NCBI GenBank assembly: GCA_913056215.1
Contig: CAJXMN010000003.1
Span: 1 to 64,000 of the forward strand
Direction: 5' to 3'
DNA: 64,000 nucleotides
Origin: an uncultured Flavobacteriales bacterium
GTDB taxonomy: Bacteria > Bacteroidota > Bacteroidia > Flavobacteriales_D > Crocinitomicaceae
Shown: positions 20,325 to 57,864 of the stretch, in pieces
Position numbering within the stretch: position 1 is the stretch's first letter
How the letters are laid out: every line of letters starts with the position of its first letter
Made by a program: the position numbers and the translations under genes
The notes under the pieces: model-generated
Database searches by the model: none
Told to the model about the DNA's origin: nothing
The model's input: the letters and a program-made list of their open reading frames with translations, nothing else

Positions 20325-20452
20325 ACGATAAAGATAATTAATAATGTCTTTTCATCATAAAACTTCCGATAAATTGCACTTTATCTTTTCATAGCCTCTT
20401 AATATGGAGAGATTTTTGTAAATTGCTTCAAAAATTAATTGATCTTAATATT

Positions 20453-21676
20453 ATGCAACAGTTGAAACACCTTTTTACTTCCCTTTTGGGAATAAGTATA
20501 TTCTCCCTTTTACTTCTGCCAACTTCTCATTTAAATAGTGCTCCTGAGATAGGATCCACTACTCTTTTACCTGGAGAAAATGTTTCGATGAAGGTTACTG
20601 TTAATTATCTGGGTAAGCCTTTAGCAGATGTTATGGTTTCTTTAATGAAAGACGGAAAAACGGTTACTCAAGGGACTTCAGACAAAAATGGAGAAGCTGA
20701 ACTAACGCTCAACGACTATAATCAAAAGCCCCTTACACTCAGAGTTATGAGCAAAGGGTACAAAACACAGCTATTAGTTGGTTTAATTGTTAAGGATGGG
20801 AGTTCTTATGAATTTTCTATGGTAAAAGGATCAGGAACAATAACTACTGATGTTAAAACTGGTATCAAAAAGATTAATAAAAAAGCGGATCAGAAAGTAG
20901 AAAAGTTCGAAAACCAGGAAGAAAAAGCCATTAAGAAAACCGAAAAAAATCAAGAAAAAGCTGAAGCGTACCGCGAAGATGTAAAGGAAGAAAAGAAAGA
21001 AGCTGAGCAGGTAATGTCTGAGGCTGAAAAGATTGAGCAAGAAAAGGAAAAAATTGCCAAAAAGAATGAAAAGCTAGACAAAGAGAGAAAAGATCCCGAG
21101 GCACTCAAAAAAGAACGTGAGCAAGCAGCCAAAGAACGCGAAAAAAAGCTTCAGCAATTAGAAAAAGAGCGAGCTCAGGAAGAAGCTGAAAAAGCGGCAA
21201 AAAAAGCTGAAAAACAAGCCGAAAAAGATGCCAAAAAAGCTGAAAAGAAAGCGAAAAAAGAAGCAAAAGCACGGAAAAAGGCAGCTAAAGAAAAAGCGAA
21301 AAAAGAAAAAGAAGCTAAGAAAGCTGCTAAAGAAAAGAAGAAAGCTGAAAAGAAAGCTGCCAAAGCCGCAAAGAAAAAACGAAAAGCTGCAGAAAAAGCA
21401 AAGAAAAAGGCTGAAAAAGCCAAAAAGCGTGAAAAAAAGTATCAGAAAAAGCTAAAGAAGTGGAACAAAAAGCAAGCAAAAGTCGAAAAGAAACGAAAGA
21501 AGTTAAATAAAAAGCAAAAGAAACTCGACAAAAAAATTGAAAAGGGCAGAATTGATGCGGATAAAGCGCGCAAAAAACAAGAAAAAATTACTGATAAACA
21601 CGAAGATCTGGATGATGATCTCGAAAAAATCAATAAGAAAGTAAGAAAATTAAAGAAGAAATACGATAAAGATTAG
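20453..21676 (+). CDS. Secreted Lys/Glu/Ala-rich coiled-coil protein with N-terminal Ig/CarboxypepD-like domain
   Basis: Starting at the ATG at 20453 rather than the TTG at 20423 gives a 407-residue protein with a clean signal peptide (about 1-30). A short beta-sandwich domain of the carboxypeptidase-regulatory type follows (VTVNYLGKPLADVMVSLMKDG, about 42-115). The remaining ~270 residues are almost entirely K, E, A, Q, R and D in heptad-like runs, predicted to be one long highly charged coiled coil. No lipobox or T9SS domain is seen. It is probably a periplasmic structural protein; the repetitive region also opens spurious antisense frames. A strong terminator follows. Confidence 0.7.
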   Translation: MQQLKHLFTSLLGISIFSLLLLPTSHLNSAPEIGSTTLLPGENVSMKVTVNYLGKPLADVMVSLMKDGKTVTQGTSDKNGEAELTLNDYNQKPLTLRVMSKGYKTQLLVGLIVKDGSSYEFSMVKGSGTITTDVKTGIKKINKKADQKVEKFENQEEKAIKKTEKNQEKAEAYREDVKEEKKEAEQVMSEAEKIEQEKEKIAKKNEKLDKERKDPEALKKEREQAAKEREKKLQQLEKERAQEEAEKAAKKAEKQAEKDAKKAEKKAKKEAKARKKAAKEKAKKEKEAKKAAKEKKKAEKKAAKAAKKKRKAAEKAKKKAEKAKKREKKYQKKLKKWNKKQAKVEKKRKKLNKKQKKLDKKIEKGRIDADKARKKQEKITDKHEDLDDDLEKINKKVRKLKKKYDKD

Positions 21677-22052: not shown

Positions 22053-22874
22053 ATGTCTGACAAGAGTTTTATTGTTCCGCACGATTTTTCTGAGGTTGCG
22101 AATTGTGCATTAAATCATGCCATAGCAACTGCTAAGGTCGTTGGAGCAGAAATTTATGTACTGCATGTCGTAGCCCGCGAAAAAGCCATTAAAGATGCTG
22201 AAAAAAAGCTGAAAAACGTCATCAATGAAAAAGAAACGGGTGGAGTTCAGTTAACACCGAAAATTCGGGTCGGTAACATATTCGAAGATATTGGTGATTT
22301 TGCCGCTGAACATCATGCAGAACTTATTTTTATGGGTACACACGGTGCTTCAGGTTGGCAACATATTGCTGGTTCTCACGCTTTAAAGGTTGTTACACAT
22401 TCTTCCGTGCCCTTTATTATTGTGCAACAAAAAGAAGTGGGGGAAAATGGATATGATGATATTGTTGTTCCTCTAGACCTCAATAAAGAAACAAAACAAA
22501 AATTAGCGATCGTTGCTTCAATGGCGAAATATTTTAAATCGCGCGTACACGTTATTACACCAGATGAATCCGATGAGTTTCTCAAACACAAGGTACAGGC
22601 TAACGTTAAGTTTGCCAAAAAATTCTTCTCTGAACGTGATATTGAAATGACAGCAACGTTAGCTCCTTCAGGTGGGTTTGATAAGGAAGTTGTAAAACTG
22701 GCTATCAATAAAGATGCTGACTTGATTGCAATTATGAATCAGAATAAAAGCAATTATTTGGGTGCATTTGGTTCAAATTATGAACAATACATGATCACAA
22801 ACGACGCTCAGATTCCAACGCTCATTGTCAATCCTATTGAAACACCTTACGGTAGTAGTGTGCTTTTCCAGTAA
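22053..22874 (+). CDS. Universal stress protein (two USP domains)
   Basis: This 273-residue cytoplasmic protein has tandem UspA folds: domain 1 at about 1-128 (FIVPHDFSEVA start, FMGTHGASG ATP-loop-like motif) and domain 2 at about 148-273. Domain 2 has a weaker nucleotide loop (MNQNKSNYLGAFG). Its role is stress adaptation; no specific partner is indicated. It is monocistronic, with its own promoter and terminator. Confidence 0.88.
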   Translation: MSDKSFIVPHDFSEVANCALNHAIATAKVVGAEIYVLHVVAREKAIKDAEKKLKNVINEKETGGVQLTPKIRVGNIFEDIGDFAAEHHAELIFMGTHGASGWQHIAGSHALKVVTHSSVPFIIVQQKEVGENGYDDIVVPLDLNKETKQKLAIVASMAKYFKSRVHVITPDESDEFLKHKVQANVKFAKKFFSERDIEMTATLAPSGGFDKEVVKLAINKDADLIAIMNQNKSNYLGAFGSNYEQYMITNDAQIPTLIVNPIETPYGSSVLFQ

Positions 22875-23045: not shown

Positions 23046-26000
23046 CTAATCTTTGTAATTATCCTTCTTCAGACGCAATTCAATCTCTGTCAGATTTTGC
23101 ATCTTTTTAGGTTTACGCGTTTTAATAGACGTTCTTGTAAAATAGCGATGCTGCTTTAAAAAGCTCACCTGTATTTCGTCCCATTGCCGGTCGCTGTCAA
23201 TTTTTCCATGCTCGCGTAATTCCCTTCTCAGACGGTCTGCAATTTCATGAAAATCATCGCGCCCGAGGTAATCAAGGTCTGCATCACAGATGATTTCCTC
23301 TAGTTTGTTTTTAGGTTGGTGGGGGATTTGAGTCACATAAATCAACTCCTTGATACGTTCAATATGTGCTTTTGTGTAACCAAAGCTCGGTAATATTTCC
23401 GCCGCCATTCGGGCGCCAATAGGTTCATTTTTATCATACTGTTCTACAAAACCTGCGTCGTGATAGGAAGCGGCAGATTTTAATAAAAACAAGTCCTCAT
23501 CTGTAATTCCTTCACCTATCGCAATACGTTCAGCTTGACGAGTTACATCTTTTGAGTGATCATAAGAATGATAATGGAGCTTTGGACTTAGTTCTTCTTG
23601 CAGTTTGTTTAAAATATAGCGTTCAGCTTTGTAGTAATTAATTGTACTGTAATGATGAAGGTTGACTAACTTGTGAAAAGCATCGTTAGGTTCTATTCCC
23701 TTATCATCCTTTGAAAGCTCCGGTTTTATATTCATGACTTCATACATCATGATTTTTAAACCACTTTTACTCAGCACTTTTCCTATTTTTTTACACTCAA
23801 AATAAGGTTCAATATGTTCAAAGGTCTCAGCAGTGATTGCAATTTTTTCCGGCTCGCACATCTGCTCCATGCGCTGAGCACGATTTACAGTACTTCCCCA
23901 AACATCGTAAGCGTATCGTTTCGTTCCAATAACTCCTGCAGAAACAGCTCCCGTATTGATTCCAATACGTAGCTTCCAGTACTGTTCGCCGTTTTGAATC
24001 ATTATTTCTTTTTGATCCAACATATACTGTTTGATTTGAACAGCGGCCAACACCGTGTTAATTGGATTGGTCTTATTTCTTATTGGAACACCCCCAGCAC
24101 ACATGTAAGCATCACCAATTGTTTTAATTTTTTCCAAATCATTTTTTTCAATGATTTCATCAAACTTTCGGAAATGTTTATCCAGAATCGTAACCAAGTC
24201 TTTGGCCTTCATGTTTTCGGAAATATTCGTGAAGCCCACAAAATCAGTAAACATAATGGAGACCATGCTAAAATCCCTCGCGGCTGATCGTCCATCTTTC
24301 TTCAGTTGACTTGCCGTTTCTTTCGGCAGAATATTATTGAGTAATCGTTCCGACTTTTCTTTTTCCTGTTCAAGTTCTTCCGTTTGTGCTTCAAGGCGGG
24401 TCTTCTGCTGTTCAATTTTATCTGTTTTCCTTCTTAGCTCTCGTGTCCTTTCAGCTATTTTCATTTCCAGCCGAACTTGTAACCTTCTCTCTTTGTCAAT
24501 GCTTTTACGTACTAGAAATATGACAATTATAACAAACAATAAGAGCATGAGTATGATGAACCACCAATGCAGCCAAAATGGTTTTTCTACTGATATTGTT
24601 AATTCTGCGGGGGCACTATTCCATTCGCCATTCGCCGTTCTGGCATAGACAGAAAGTTTATACTTACCAGGAGCAATACTCGCAAACCGTAGTTCATTGG
24701 AGGAGCCTAAAATTTCTTCCACCTCATCATCTCCTCGCATAATATATTTATACTCAATGCGGTCAGGGTTACTCAAATCATTGGCAAAAAAATTGAGCTT
24801 AAGGCTACGCTGATTATAGGGTAATACAATCTTATCCGTATAAGCAATACTTTCATCAAGTATTGCTCCTTTTCCGGGAAAAACTTTTTTATTTTCTACC
24901 TCTATTCCTGAGAAAAACACACGCAAATCAGCTTTCTTATCAAACGCATCCTGCGGAGGTATGTAATTATAACCTTGGATGCCGCCAAAATAAACGTTTC
25001 CTTTTTTTGAAACGTAGCTCGCCCCCAGATTGAGCTCGTTACTCATAAGCCCATCTTTCTCTGTAAAATTATTGAACTGTTTCGTTTTTAAGTTCATTGC
25101 TACTACTCCGCGGTTTGTAGACAACCATAAATGATTGGGGTCAGCTGCTGTCCATTCCACTCCGTAAATAACATTGTTGGGCAGACCTTCAGACTTACCG
25201 TAGTTTTTCACAGATTGCGTCTTCGTATTAAAGAAAAATAACCCGTCTCCCAGAGTCCCCAGCCAAAATTCATGGTCTTTTAACTGGCAAAAGCTAGTAA
25301 AATAGTCGTTCGTCGCATTATGCAATGCATCAAATGTTTTGGGACGATGTACGCTAATAGCATCACCCTTTCGCTCAAATTGATAAAGACCTCCTGAACT
25401 CGGTGCTACATAATAATGTCCCGCTTTAGTTGAAAAAATAAGTCGACATGGACCAGGACCTATAGATTTTGGTACATCTGGTTGATTATATATGTACTGA
25501 AACGTTTTGCTTGTATAATCTAAAACAGCAACACCTGCTCGCGTACCTACAAGATAGGTAGAATCTTCATAAGGTACAATAGTATACGTTTTATCAAACC
25601 CTCGTTGATTATCAATACTGTGGGTGATCTTTTTAAATTCATAAGAGGCGAGGTTATCTTTATCAATGGTCAATTCAAATAAACCATCAACAGAACCCAC
25701 CAATATTTTTTTTGGACTTAAGACGTACAAACAGAGTGTTGTATGATCTTCATTGTTACGAGCTTCACGCATGTAGTGATAATAATTGCGTGTGTTTCGA
25801 TCATACATACTGATTCCATGATCAGCAGCAACAAATAAAAATTGACCCGTACGATCTTCACTAAATCCCCAAATATTTTGTGAAGGAAGGCCTTTATCTA
25901 AGTTTCCTGAAAAACCAACCCCTCTAAATCCGAGGTGATCCGGATCAAAGCTGCTCAGTCCACGCTGTGATGCAATCCAGATGATCCCTTGATTGTCGCG

Positions 26001-26939
26001 ATATAGTCCACTAATTTTATTTGATATTAGTGAGCCTTTTTGGAAAAAATCTGCTGTATAATTCAGTACGTTAATACTATCTGACTCATAACTAGCTACT
26101 TGAAAGAGACCACTATTTTCGGTAGCTATAAGTACTTTTTGTTCATTGAGGTAGAGCGCATCGACAATATTAACAGCACCGATTTCGCCAAACATTTTCG
26201 TGTAGGAAAGAAATTTTTTTTGTTTTTGGTCAAAGTAAAAAACACCTTGATTCGTCGCTACAACAATAGAACGCGAAGGATGGTCTATTAGTCCGTTGAT
26301 TACAAAGTCGTCTGGGTCATTCACCTGAGGTTTATACGTACGTTTCTCTTTAAAATCCCGACTGGCGATCAATACTCCTTCAAATTCACTAACAATAATA
26401 AGTTGATCACCCTTGATTTCAATATCTACGATACGCGAATCAAAAGACGTTTGATCAATAAGCTTGAATGTCTCCTTTTGTGTGTCAAAATAATAGATCT
26501 TACCAAAACCCGTTCCTAACCATAAATTTCCAGTATCATCTTCAGCAATTGCATGAATTTCCAACCGCTCTCTTCTAGTACTTTTATATGCAGTAAACTC
26601 AACAGATTTCGGATTATACTTCGTTAATCCATTGTAGGTTCCAAACCACAAATTCCCTTGCTGATCTGCCGTGGAAACATGTATGTATTCATTGGATATT
26701 TCATATCCTTTATCTGCCGAAAAAACTTCAAAATTTTTTCCGTTAAATCGATTAATACCATCTTGAGTTCCCAACCATAACGCACCCAGATCATCTTGAA
26801 TAATGCTGGATACTACACTTTGTGAAAGTCCATCATTAATCGTGTAGTTTTTAAATTGAATATGGTCTTGAGCGTTGATGTTTCCAACAACACTCAAGAT
26901 CAAACAACATAAATAAAAGTATGTAGTAGTTGTACGCAT
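23046..26939 (-). CDS. Beta-propeller sensor / adenylate cyclase / HD-domain receptor
   Basis: This 1297-residue inner-membrane receptor has, in order: a signal peptide (1-23); a periplasmic two-component-regulator beta-propeller (about 30-690, repeated GxLWxGT/Y-type blades); a Y_Y_Y domain (about 710-780); one membrane span (about 788-810); a coiled coil (about 815-875); a class III nucleotidyl cyclase (about 885-1075); and an HD domain (about 1105-1235). Cyclase metal aspartates are in FTDFVGF (about 896) and TIGDAYM. The Lys in EKIKTIGD and the Asp in YDVWGS predict ATP rather than GTP. Asn and Arg in VNRAQRM are the transition-state residues. The HD site has His in YDHSKDV, HD in SYHDAGF and Asp in CDADLD. 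This front end normally drives histidine kinases. It probably makes cAMP; the HD substrate is unknown. Confidence 0.85.
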   Translation of the reverse strand: MRTTTTYFYLCCLILSVVGNINAQDHIQFKNYTINDGLSQSVVSSIIQDDLGALWLGTQDGINRFNGKNFEVFSADKGYEISNEYIHVSTADQQGNLWFGTYNGLTKYNPKSVEFTAYKSTRRERLEIHAIAEDDTGNLWLGTGFGKIYYFDTQKETFKLIDQTSFDSRIVDIEIKGDQLIIVSEFEGVLIASRDFKEKRTYKPQVNDPDDFVINGLIDHPSRSIVVATNQGVFYFDQKQKKFLSYTKMFGEIGAVNIVDALYLNEQKVLIATENSGLFQVASYESDSINVLNYTADFFQKGSLISNKISGLYRDNQGIIWIASQRGLSSFDPDHLGFRGVGFSGNLDKGLPSQNIWGFSEDRTGQFLFVAADHGISMYDRNTRNYYHYMREARNNEDHTTLCLYVLSPKKILVGSVDGLFELTIDKDNLASYEFKKITHSIDNQRGFDKTYTIVPYEDSTYLVGTRAGVAVLDYTSKTFQYIYNQPDVPKSIGPGPCRLIFSTKAGHYYVAPSSGGLYQFERKGDAISVHRPKTFDALHNATNDYFTSFCQLKDHEFWLGTLGDGLFFFNTKTQSVKNYGKSEGLPNNVIYGVEWTAADPNHLWLSTNRGVVAMNLKTKQFNNFTEKDGLMSNELNLGASYVSKKGNVYFGGIQGYNYIPPQDAFDKKADLRVFFSGIEVENKKVFPGKGAILDESIAYTDKIVLPYNQRSLKLNFFANDLSNPDRIEYKYIMRGDDEVEEILGSSNELRFASIAPGKYKLSVYARTANGEWNSAPAELTISVEKPFWLHWWFIILMLLLFVIIVIFLVRKSIDKERRLQVRLEMKIAERTRELRRKTDKIEQQKTRLEAQTEELEQEKEKSERLLNNILPKETASQLKKDGRSAARDFSMVSIMFTDFVGFTNISENMKAKDLVTILDKHFRKFDEIIEKNDLEKIKTIGDAYMCAGGVPIRNKTNPINTVLAAVQIKQYMLDQKEIMIQNGEQYWKLRIGINTGAVSAGVIGTKRYAYDVWGSTVNRAQRMEQMCEPEKIAITAETFEHIEPYFECKKIGKVLSKSGLKIMMYEVMNIKPELSKDDKGIEPNDAFHKLVNLHHYSTINYYKAERYILNKLQEELSPKLHYHSYDHSKDVTRQAERIAIGEGITDEDLFLLKSAASYHDAGFVEQYDKNEPIGARMAAEILPSFGYTKAHIERIKELIYVTQIPHQPKNKLEEIICDADLDYLGRDDFHEIADRLRRELREHGKIDSDRQWDEIQVSFLKQHRYFTRTSIKTRKPKKMQNLTEIELRLKKDNYKD

Positions 26940-26944
26940 GTTAA

Positions 26945-27463
26945 TTACTGCCCCTGATCTTTGACAGTATCTGCACCTATTGCGGAATTTTCCATATCGC
27001 GATCAAATAGGTACAGCCCACCTTTATCGCTTCCAATCAATTGCAACTTATCCAAAATTGTTCGAGCCAGTGCCTCTTCTTCTAATTGCTCAGATACATA
27101 CCATTGAATAAAGTTATGTGTGGTGTAGTCTTTTTCCTGAAGACACACATCAACAACGTTGTTAATACTTTCTGTTACTACGATCTCATGCTCCAGTAAT
27201 GATTTGAATATTTTAATCATAGAATCAAAACTAATCGGTGGTTTTTCGATCGCAGGAATTTTTGCAACACCTCCGCGTTCATTAATGAATTTAATCAACT
27301 TCAACATGTGGAAACGCTCTTCGTCACTGTGCTGGTATAAAAACTGAGCCGTTCCATTATACCCTTGATTTTCAGCCCAAGATGCCATTGACAAATACAA
27401 GTGACTCGATGATGCCTCCTTAACAATTTGCTCGTTTAAAACTTCTTCTACTCGTTCATTCAT
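26945..27463 (-). CDS. Non-haem ferritin (FtnA-like)
   Basis: This 172-residue iron-storage protein has a four-helix bundle and ferroxidase ligands in ASSSHLYLSMASWAE (helix A), DEERFHM (helix B) and the EQLEEE region (helix D). I chose the ATG at 27463 over the in-frame TTG at 27484, because a purine-rich AAAGGAA sits 7 bases before it and the family begins MNERVEEVLN. The gene lies 6 bases downstream of the start of the cyclase-receptor gene on the same strand, so ferritin may be co-transcribed ahead of that receptor. The tail (about 150-172) is acidic. Confidence 0.92.
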   Translation of the reverse strand: MNERVEEVLNEQIVKEASSSHLYLSMASWAENQGYNGTAQFLYQHSDEERFHMLKLIKFINERGGVAKIPAIEKPPISFDSMIKIFKSLLEHEIVVTESINNVVDVCLQEKDYTTHNFIQWYVSEQLEEEALARTILDKLQLIGSDKGGLYLFDRDMENSAIGADTVKDQGQ

Positions 27464-57209: not shown

Positions 57210-57213
57210 AAGT

Positions 57214-57864
57214 ATGAAAGCATTGGATAAATTTAGAGTCATTTTTGAACCAAAGTTGTTGGAAGAATTTGAAGAGAAAGCAACAGAAGTTTCTGTCAAA
57301 GCAGGTGATACTATTTTAGATTATGGACAGATCGTCAGAAGTATGCCGATTATTGCTTCAGGAACTGTGAAAGTATCACGACGCGATGAAGATGGCAAGG
57401 AAATACTCCTGTATTATGTGAATGCTCAGGAGAGTTGCGCAATGACTTTTACTTGCTGTATGGAACAGTTTCCAAGTGAAATCAAGGCTGTGGCAGAAGA
57501 TGATGTGGAAATGCTAACCGTACCCATCACCGTTATGGATCAGTGGTTGCAAAAATATACGACGTGGAAAAGTTTTGTGATGGGAACGATTCGCAACCGA
57601 TTTAATGAAATGTTGCATACAATTGATCAAATAGCCTTTCAGAAGCTGGATGAACGACTCAACTATTACTTGCAGCAAAAAGTAAAACATACGGGGTCGC
57701 GATTATTGAACCTTTCGCATGAACAAATAGCAACTGATTTAGCGACTTCACGTGTCGTTATTTCGCGGTTGTTGAAAAAAATGGAAAATGACGAATTGCT
57801 GTTGCTTTATAGAAATCAGATAAAACTGTTGAGCGCTTTTGAAATAGAAGAAACACACTCTTAA
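57214..57864 (+). CDS. Crp/Fnr family transcriptional regulator
   Basis: This 216-residue regulator has a cyclic-nucleotide-binding-fold sensor (about 15-125) and a C-terminal HTH (about 155-195; LSHEQIATDLATSRVVISRLL). The sensor has the Cys-rich ESCAMTFTCCM block typical of one Bacteroidota branch and lacks a clear phosphate-binding-cassette arginine, so the ligand may not be cAMP. It heads a compact operon with an ABC exporter and a Ppx/GppA phosphatase. Confidence 0.88.
   Translation: MKALDKFRVIFEPKLLEEFEEKATEVSVKAGDTILDYGQIVRSMPIIASGTVKVSRRDEDGKEILLYYVNAQESCAMTFTCCMEQFPSEIKAVAEDDVEMLTVPITVMDQWLQKYTTWKSFVMGTIRNRFNEMLHTIDQIAFQKLDERLNYYLQQKVKHTGSRLLNLSHEQIATDLATSRVVISRLLKKMENDELLLLYRNQIKLLSAFEIEETHS

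Follow-up and report, generated by a model that had tools for sequence, protein, structure and literature searches.

The DNA analysed here, a 64,000-nucleotide stretch (the window) of contig CAJXMN010000003.1 from an uncultured Flavobacteriales bacterium of the family Crocinitomicaceae (GenBank assembly GCA_913056215.1), carries on its reverse strand, at positions 23046–26939, a gene for a transmembrane receptor that we judge somewhat likely both to make and to destroy its own second messenger, with the cyclase domain making cyclic AMP (cAMP) and the C-terminal HD domain hydrolysing it. The idea that one protein could make as well as remove a nucleotide signal had been put forward in the first-pass annotation of this DNA and is supported by the results described below.

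In the mechanism that we propose, the beta-propeller would sense a ligand in the periplasm and the signal would travel from the Y_Y_Y domain through the membrane helix and the coiled coil to the cyclase; as in receptor cyclases, a ligand outside would presumably alter the coiled coil and the cyclase dimer. The cyclase, a class III homodimer, would make cAMP, and the tethered HD domain, a putative small bacterial relative of the class I phosphodiesterases (PDEs), would hydrolyse it to 5'-AMP; the receptor would thereby hold the local level steady or produce a pulse, rather than simply turn the signal on. The two activities might be alternately regulated or might run together to give a sharp local gradient, and the sequence fits either. 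The bifunctional GGDEF–EAL proteins likewise join, in one polypeptide, the synthase and the hydrolase of a single second messenger, alternately regulated, although their messenger is cyclic di-GMP and their hydrolases belong to other families.

Domain architecture and conserved residues of the receptor

The receptor gene begins with ATG and forms a single uninterrupted frame of 1,297 residues. A Pfam scan of the protein placed Reg_prop, Y_Y_Y, cyclase and HD domains (the last at residues 1126–1221, 7.2e-6) above their cut-offs and detected no histidine kinase output domain. The order read in the first-pass annotation is thus confirmed: one open reading frame (ORF) encodes the propeller/Y_Y_Y sensor, followed by the class III cyclase of ATP type and then the HD domain, with a putative membrane helix between sensor and cyclase. 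The nearest solved structures are those of hybrid two-component sensor ectodomains (4a2l and 4a2m) for the periplasmic part and mammalian adenylate cyclases for the cyclase, with AC5, AC9 and GC-A among the PDB matches.

Conservation was assessed in 35 aligned full-length sequences, the window protein and 34 others (29 from the same family and five from other families of the order). Six cyclase residues, D899 and D943 (which we take to bind metal), K939 and D1012 (presumably the adenine-type pair) and N1019 and R1023 (assumed to be the transition-state residues), are each identical in all 35, and the same is true, in the HD domain, of Y1123, H1124, H1128, H1160, D1161, E1172, T1203, D1219, D1221, E1240, Q1257, F1260 and H1264. 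Such identity exceeds chance because orthologues within the family are only 40–74% identical, and it bears out both the intact ATP-type cyclase site and the complete HD set described previously. By comparison with class I PDEs, we take H1128, H1160, D1161 and D1221 to be ligands of the first metal, H1124 to be the acid histidine and Y1123 the corresponding tyrosine, and regard Q1257 and F1260, three residues further on, as candidates for the purine-binding glutamine and the clamp phenylalanine. The role of the purine-binding glutamine in PDEs is described in PMC8115329 and PMC13095499, and the latter also covers the invariant glutamine together with the hydrophobic clamp. The same residues are retained in 12 further cyclase–HD proteins that have no propeller (one of them cut by a contig end), with few exceptions: one Ser in place of a metal Asp, one Asn in place of the adenine Asp, and Tyr in place of the clamp Phe in three. 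Since the adenine-recognizing Lys/Asp pair is kept, the expected product of the cyclase is cAMP. A pyrimidine cyclase of the Pycsar type was considered but appears unlikely: the cyclase is hit by PycC models of PADLOC (best 1.3e-13), but its Lys/Asp pair is of the ATP type. No PycTM- or PycTIR-like receptor was seen by eye among the 13 window ORFs inspected, which were not each scanned.

Versions of the receptor are present in 59 of the 60 Crocinitomicaceae genomes (G000–G059; counted by eye): a single match of 1,210 residues or more is present in 50, five have partial or broken versions with some propeller, four are propeller-less, and the single genome with no version is 59% complete. The receptor also occurs in other families of the order (e.g. 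f3, f10 and f11) at ∼ 38–41% identity. The database search for the same domain order that the first-pass annotation had proposed therefore shows a widespread architecture, and the versions in 59 of the 60 family genomes rule out a recent one-off fusion. The earlier premise that this front end normally feeds a histidine kinase is weaker than claimed: propeller–cyclase proteins with no HD domain are found in another family of the same order (L039 and L040), and a propeller feeding a cyclase is therefore not unique to the window protein. The same proteins would favour an ordinary receptor cyclase in which the HD domain is only a dimerization module or a structural tail. We consider this very improbable, as the HD domain is the most conserved part of the protein (mean identity to the window protein over the 34 other rows, 0.80, compared with 0.66 for the cyclase and 0.41 for the propeller), its checked residues are invariant in the 35 rows, and two genomes whose propeller–cyclases lack the domain (G060 and G071) retain a standalone HD gene.

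Two PF00211 matches were found in every one of 10 genomes of the genus. The HD domain is present in all 20 proteins, 19 of which are complete; in the genome from which the window comes, the second cyclase–HD copy is cut by a contig end with the HD domain already begun. Models for PDEase_I, PDEase_II and CpdA-type enzymes had no match in that genome (other PDE families were not searched), and if cAMP is degraded enzymatically there, the HD domains are the leading candidates found. The genome also encodes four cyclic nucleotide monophosphate (cNMP)-binding proteins, three of them with a Crp-type helix–turn–helix (HTH). One of these three, a Crp-type regulator with a cNMP-binding domain and an HTH, is encoded in the window itself (∼ 57211–57861, forward strand) and is a candidate cAMP receptor.

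Predicted fold of the HD domain and its relation to class I PDEs

An AlphaFold2 (AF2) model of the 197-residue HD region, built from 25 sequences, reached a predicted local distance difference test (pLDDT) score of 96.4. Foldseek's 1,000 best PDB chains were re-aligned to it with VIA-align, and the best 50 matches listed are cyclic-nucleotide PDE entries (PDE10A, 7A, 2A, 5 and 6), with Z scores of 16.9–18.1, root-mean-square deviations (rmsd) of 2.4–2.7 Å and 191–193 of the 197 residues aligned; two of the entries, 5vp1 and 5vp0, have titles without an enzyme name, and their residue range matches the PDE2A rows. A YedJ-type HD family from the same genus (nine proteins; model pLDDT 80) served as the control and matched its own family at Z 15.1–18.9, whereas its best PDE match had a Z of only 9.9 at an rmsd of 4.2 Å; the control HD family therefore gives no PDE match of that quality. 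These models support a specifically class I PDE-like fold and narrow down the 'HD phosphohydrolase' of the first-pass annotation, whose HD set stands, to a predicted class I PDE-like identity.

A residue register was obtained by aligning a profile of 31 diverse HD members with the catalytic domain of PDE4D, used as a single-sequence template, in hhalign with the confidence cut off (-mact 0); a global alignment of the two (-glob) gave nothing useful. In HD numbering (to which 1093 is added for the position in the receptor protein), Y30, H31, H35 and V39 pair with the same letters of YHNxxHxxxV, H67–D68 with the HD motif, T110 and D128 with the Thr of LATDM and the Asp of CADL, respectively, and E147 with a Glu; towards the C-terminus, Q164 and F167 pair with the Gln and Phe of SQVGF, which we take to be the purine-binding Gln and the clamp Phe, and H171 also meets its own letter. 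All five C-terminal test positions (E147, G152, Q164, F167 and H171) match PDE4D. When the PDE C-terminus was shuffled 150 times, a match at four of these positions arose in five shuffles and a match at all five in none. When the YedJ-type control was aligned with PDE4D, the HD motif was paired but the YHNxxH and CADL motifs were not. We regard the register, which comes from a weak alignment, as support and not as proof.

Several results weigh against the HD domain being a cAMP-hydrolysing relative of the class I PDEs. The fold comparison has only one control, with a less confident model from nine sequences; YedJ- and YpgQ-type chains are not among the best 50 VIA-align matches listed, but YpgQ or 2pq7 could still score a Z of up to 16.9; Foldseek ties YpgQ with PDE4D at an E value of ∼ 2e-3 and gives no match below 1e-3; and a sequence-profile search ranks 2pq7, Lin1889 and YedJ-type HD proteins above PDEs (PDE8A). 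The PDE4D alignment as a whole has an E value of 0.0042 but a probability of 8% with its single-sequence template. In it, G152 pairs with a Gly of PDE4D other than the one expected, the invariant E79 meets Leu, G70 meets Asp and D126 meets Cys, and W160, T175, K186 and P116 meet other letters. The HD sequence of the window protein, HDAGFVEQYDKNE, departs from the class I PDE signature (as in PMC1431542), whose second His and Asn it lacks. The Pfam model PF00233 (PDEase_I) matches neither the window protein nor its HD domain; it matches two of 25 HD members at E ≤10 (best 0.0088), and in 148 Bacteroidota genomes it gave no match over the cut-off and a single one below it, in an HD–PycTM protein. 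The HD-less propeller–cyclases indicate, in addition, that the cyclase can do without the HD domain. Because of the departure from the signature and the absence of PF00233, we use the term class I PDE-like for the HD domain and do not place it in class I itself. The Pfam HD-CE model matches 18 of the 25 HD members (best 1.2e-4), the window member scoring 21.9 bits against a cut-off of 27; the term HD-CE was looked for in the texts of PMC8195603 and PMC7159879 and is in neither.

The profile ranking, in which 2pq7, Lin1889, YedJ and YpgQ-type HD proteins are the closest solved relatives, and the Foldseek tie would also suit an HD domain that is some other nucleotide hydrolase (YpgQ-like, or acting on alarmones or 5'-nucleotides) that clears a by-product or another signal. 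YpgQ itself is, we assume, a nucleotide pyrophosphohydrolase. Such a function appears unlikely, given that the whole predicted fold, C-terminal helices included, fits PDEs while the YedJ-type control has no high-Z fit to them, that the control lacks the YHNxxH and CADL pairings with PDE4D, and that the HD domain is linked to cyclases and, in two loci (L153 and L155), to cNMP-binding proteins. We give marginally less credence to a third possibility, in which the HD domain is a cyclic-nucleotide sensor or allosteric brake that binds the product cAMP and feeds back on the cyclase. The missing His and Asn of the signature would be consistent with such a sensor, and so would the fusions of this HD family seen in other Bacteroidota, whose partners are membrane modules (PycTM and YitT) and a TIR-like/TPR protein; however, none of the 35 sequences differs at the first-metal ligands, the acid His or the Thr, which is probably stronger conservation than a binding pocket alone usually needs. 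If, as we prefer, the domain hydrolyses cAMP, a bacterial PDE-like HD domain of 200 residues, linked as it is to cyclases, could be the off-switch of cAMP signalling in these Bacteroidota and could serve as a minimal relative in asking how eukaryotic PDEs arose.

The HD family in Bacteroidota

Matches to the HD family (E ≤0.001) were found in 159 of 395 sampled Bacteroidota genomes, although the weakest may be other HD proteins. The domain has class III cyclases as fusion partners in the Crocinitomicaceae, elsewhere in their order and in two further loci, L050 and L146. Several standalone HD genes have class III cyclase genes (including those for receiver–cyclase proteins) or YitT-type genes in the fetched stretch, YitT–HD fusions occur as well, and in L153 and L155 the linkage is to cNMP-binding proteins. 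The fusion in L146 (3666–9263) is a 1,866-residue kinase–AAA–GAF–cyclase–HD protein, a different cyclase–HD architecture. In L155 (1382–5211), the HD gene, a gene for a 917-residue protein with no Pfam match and the gene for the cNMP-binding protein follow one another on one strand. TPR and HD domains share one chain in L145 (875–3463) and L160 (4102–6741); the L160 protein has a TIR-like start (by eye, with a weak bSEFIR match) and its gene adjoins a receiver–cyclase gene.

Thirteen HD–PycTM fusions were examined (L143, L147, L148, L169, L200–L207 and L228), in which PycTM (PF18967) was recognized by Pfam in L143 and L148 and by a three-sequence profile made here in the other eleven. They share the HD family of the receptor but carry it on a Pycsar-type membrane module, and all 13 have N, S or T at the Gln position, 164, whereas the cyclase-linked HD domains carry Gln. 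The role of PycTM in Pycsar is given in PMC11224242. Among HD domains that are not fused, or are fused to something other than a cyclase or YitT, a cyclase gene is present in the stretch for nine of 19 with Gln and two of 25 without, the stretches being of unequal length. In a tree of the HD domains (79 rows, three of them outgroup; bootstrap not fully settled), all 38 rows without Gln at 164, including the 13 PycTM fusions, fall in one clade (99/99). The residue at the Gln position was also compared, by Fisher tests on 62 rows, with linkage to cyclase, PycTM and YitT genes (p 3e-7 to 0.005); ten repeats of genes in other loci (L133–L142) were dropped beforehand, and the Crocinitomicaceae cyclase–HD fusions lie outside this count. 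These p-values were set aside, as the 38 rows represent one evolutionary change.

In the same tree the cyclase-fused HD domains of L050 and L146 sit among standalone ones, apart from the Crocinitomicaceae fusions. The cyclase fusion may therefore have arisen at least three times, with the HD domain after the cyclase each time, although the forks concerned (81/82 and 94/69) lack strong support and losses are also possible. A broader picture, which we offer tentatively and regard as possible rather than probable, is that of an unrecognized Bacteroidota sister lineage of the class I PDEs. Its Gln members would be coupled to cyclases, forming in the Crocinitomicaceae a one-chain make-and-break cAMP receptor co-transcribed with ferritin, and its N/S/T clade, in which fusion to a Pycsar-type membrane module is frequent, would have different cyclic nucleotides as substrates, perhaps pyrimidine ones. 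The PDE-like HD domain could give a testable handle on the HD–PycTM proteins, the PycTM module being part of a defence-effector family.

Relatives of the HD domain were also seen in viral sequences. Pseudomonas phage pPa_SNUABM_DT01 (MW735835.1, 265 kb) encodes, beside a tRNA nucleotidyltransferase gene, a 213-residue 'putative hydrolase' (L240:1501–2142) related to the HD domain (30% over 90%). It has YHNxxH and HDWDHSGG, and with them two class I signature residues, the second His and the Gly, that are absent from the window protein; it also has His for Gln at 164 and is possibly a cyclic-nucleotide hydrolase. Another relative (41% identity, Gln at 164) is found in the viral contig IMGVR_UViG_3300012006_000604 (L241:1696–2238), and a second HD domain, used as query against the phage collection, gave no match. 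Four records of metagenome-assembled genomes (L060, L064, L066 and L078), titled Chitinophaga pinensis, Candidatus Kuenenia and Candidatus Planktophila, have a gene 70–76% identical to the window HD domain, and their titles look misassigned.

Comparison with known systems and genomic neighbourhood

The receptor shares its propeller and Y_Y_Y periplasmic sensor with the hybrid two-component systems of Bacteroidota (4a2l, 3v9f and relatives), but their output is a histidine kinase and its own is a cyclase and an HD domain. With mammalian adenylate cyclases and receptor guanylyl cyclases it shares the class III domain, preceded by a coiled coil as in receptor cyclases; it has a single cyclase domain, which must dimerize, and to our knowledge none of those proteins has a PDE-like domain on the chain. 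The closest parallel is CAPE (COMBINED AC with PDE; AC, adenylyl cyclase) of plants, with CAPE-like proteins in some stramenopiles; for the domains of Marchantia CAPE, AC and PDE activities have both been reported (PMC5159850 and PMC8115329). As described there, CAPE likewise carries both an adenylyl cyclase of class III and a PDE for cyclic nucleotides on a single, probably membrane-bound, protein, but its class I PDE is N-terminal and its AC C-terminal, with two predicted transmembrane helices between them, whereas the window receptor is bacterial, has an N-terminal periplasmic sensor, one apparent transmembrane helix before the cyclase and the HD domain after it, and lacks the class I signature. 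If our reading of the HD domain holds, the receptor would work like CAPE without being a member, as the order is reversed and the class signature is absent. In PMC8115329 and PMC1431542, class I PDEs are placed in eukaryotes and other classes are assigned to bacteria. In the literature that we searched, which covered few subscription papers, there was no bacterial cyclase–HD protein of this kind and no bacterial class I PDE. The suggestion that this is a little-described system is therefore sustained for bacteria within that literature but not more generally, the plant AC–PDE fusions having already been described.

Table 1. Features of the receptor gene and its immediate neighbours in the window
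Feature	Position	Strand	Basis
Whole receptor gene	23046..26939	–	1,297 residues; signal region, propellers, Y_Y_Y, transmembrane helix, coil, cyclase, HD
Periplasmic beta-propeller region, residues 25–700	24840..26867	–	Pfam Reg_prop 1e-22; PDB 4a2l_A 4e-73
Y_Y_Y domain, residues 723–784	24588..24773	–	Pfam 2.8e-11
Putative transmembrane helix, ∼ residues 790–812	24504..24572	–	Hydrophobic run read directly from the translation
Coiled coil/signalling helix ahead of the cyclase, residues 813–885	24285..24503	–	Sequence; HNOBA match at 832–879, below cut-off
Class III cyclase catalytic domain, residues 889–1068, ATP-type residues	23736..24275	–	Pfam Guanylate_cyc (PF00211) 1.8e-45
HD domain and C-terminal helices, residues 1094–1290, class I PDE-like predicted fold	23070..23660	–	
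Ferritin gene, directly upstream of the receptor	26945..27463	–	Pfam Ferritin 7.8e-41
Universal stress protein gene, convergent neighbour	22053..22874	+	Pfam; match in 21 of 80 loci

The stop codon of the ferritin gene is separated by 5 bases from the receptor ATG (the ferritin ORF as called starts at TTG 27484, with an ATG at 27463). Among 80 loci, 70 include the directly upstream gene and in 34 of these it is a ferritin gene; the gap between the two genes is –41 to 56 bases in 30 of the 34 (first-start rule). The pair has 21 different sets of outer neighbours (three of them truncated by a locus end), 11 of the 34 sharing one set, and thus reflects more than inherited block synteny. The remaining 36 loci have another upstream gene, which in nine of them belongs to a single BLAST cluster. 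In these nine loci (L081 and eight others) the clustered gene, HAMP–SpoIIE in L081, whose member was scanned, replaces ferritin directly before the cyclase–HD gene. G060, in which the HD gene is separate, has HD, HAMP–SpoIIE, TPR-like, YfiR-like and ferritin genes on one strand, and this run is flanked by stress-protein and RNase R genes as in the window (these and the ferritin were recognized by eye).

The ferritin pairing suggests that the receptor may have a role in iron or redox homeostasis. Glycans, which the first-pass annotation had proposed as ligands, find no echo in the neighbourhood: the locus does not resemble a polysaccharide locus, with the ferritin and stress-protein genes and, by eye, genes for a histidine kinase and RNase R nearby. 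Ferritin could provide a concrete physiological lead for this type of sensor. Elsewhere in the window (20423–21676, forward strand) there is a gene for a 417-residue protein that, judged from its sequence, is extremely rich in Lys and Glu past its N-terminal part.

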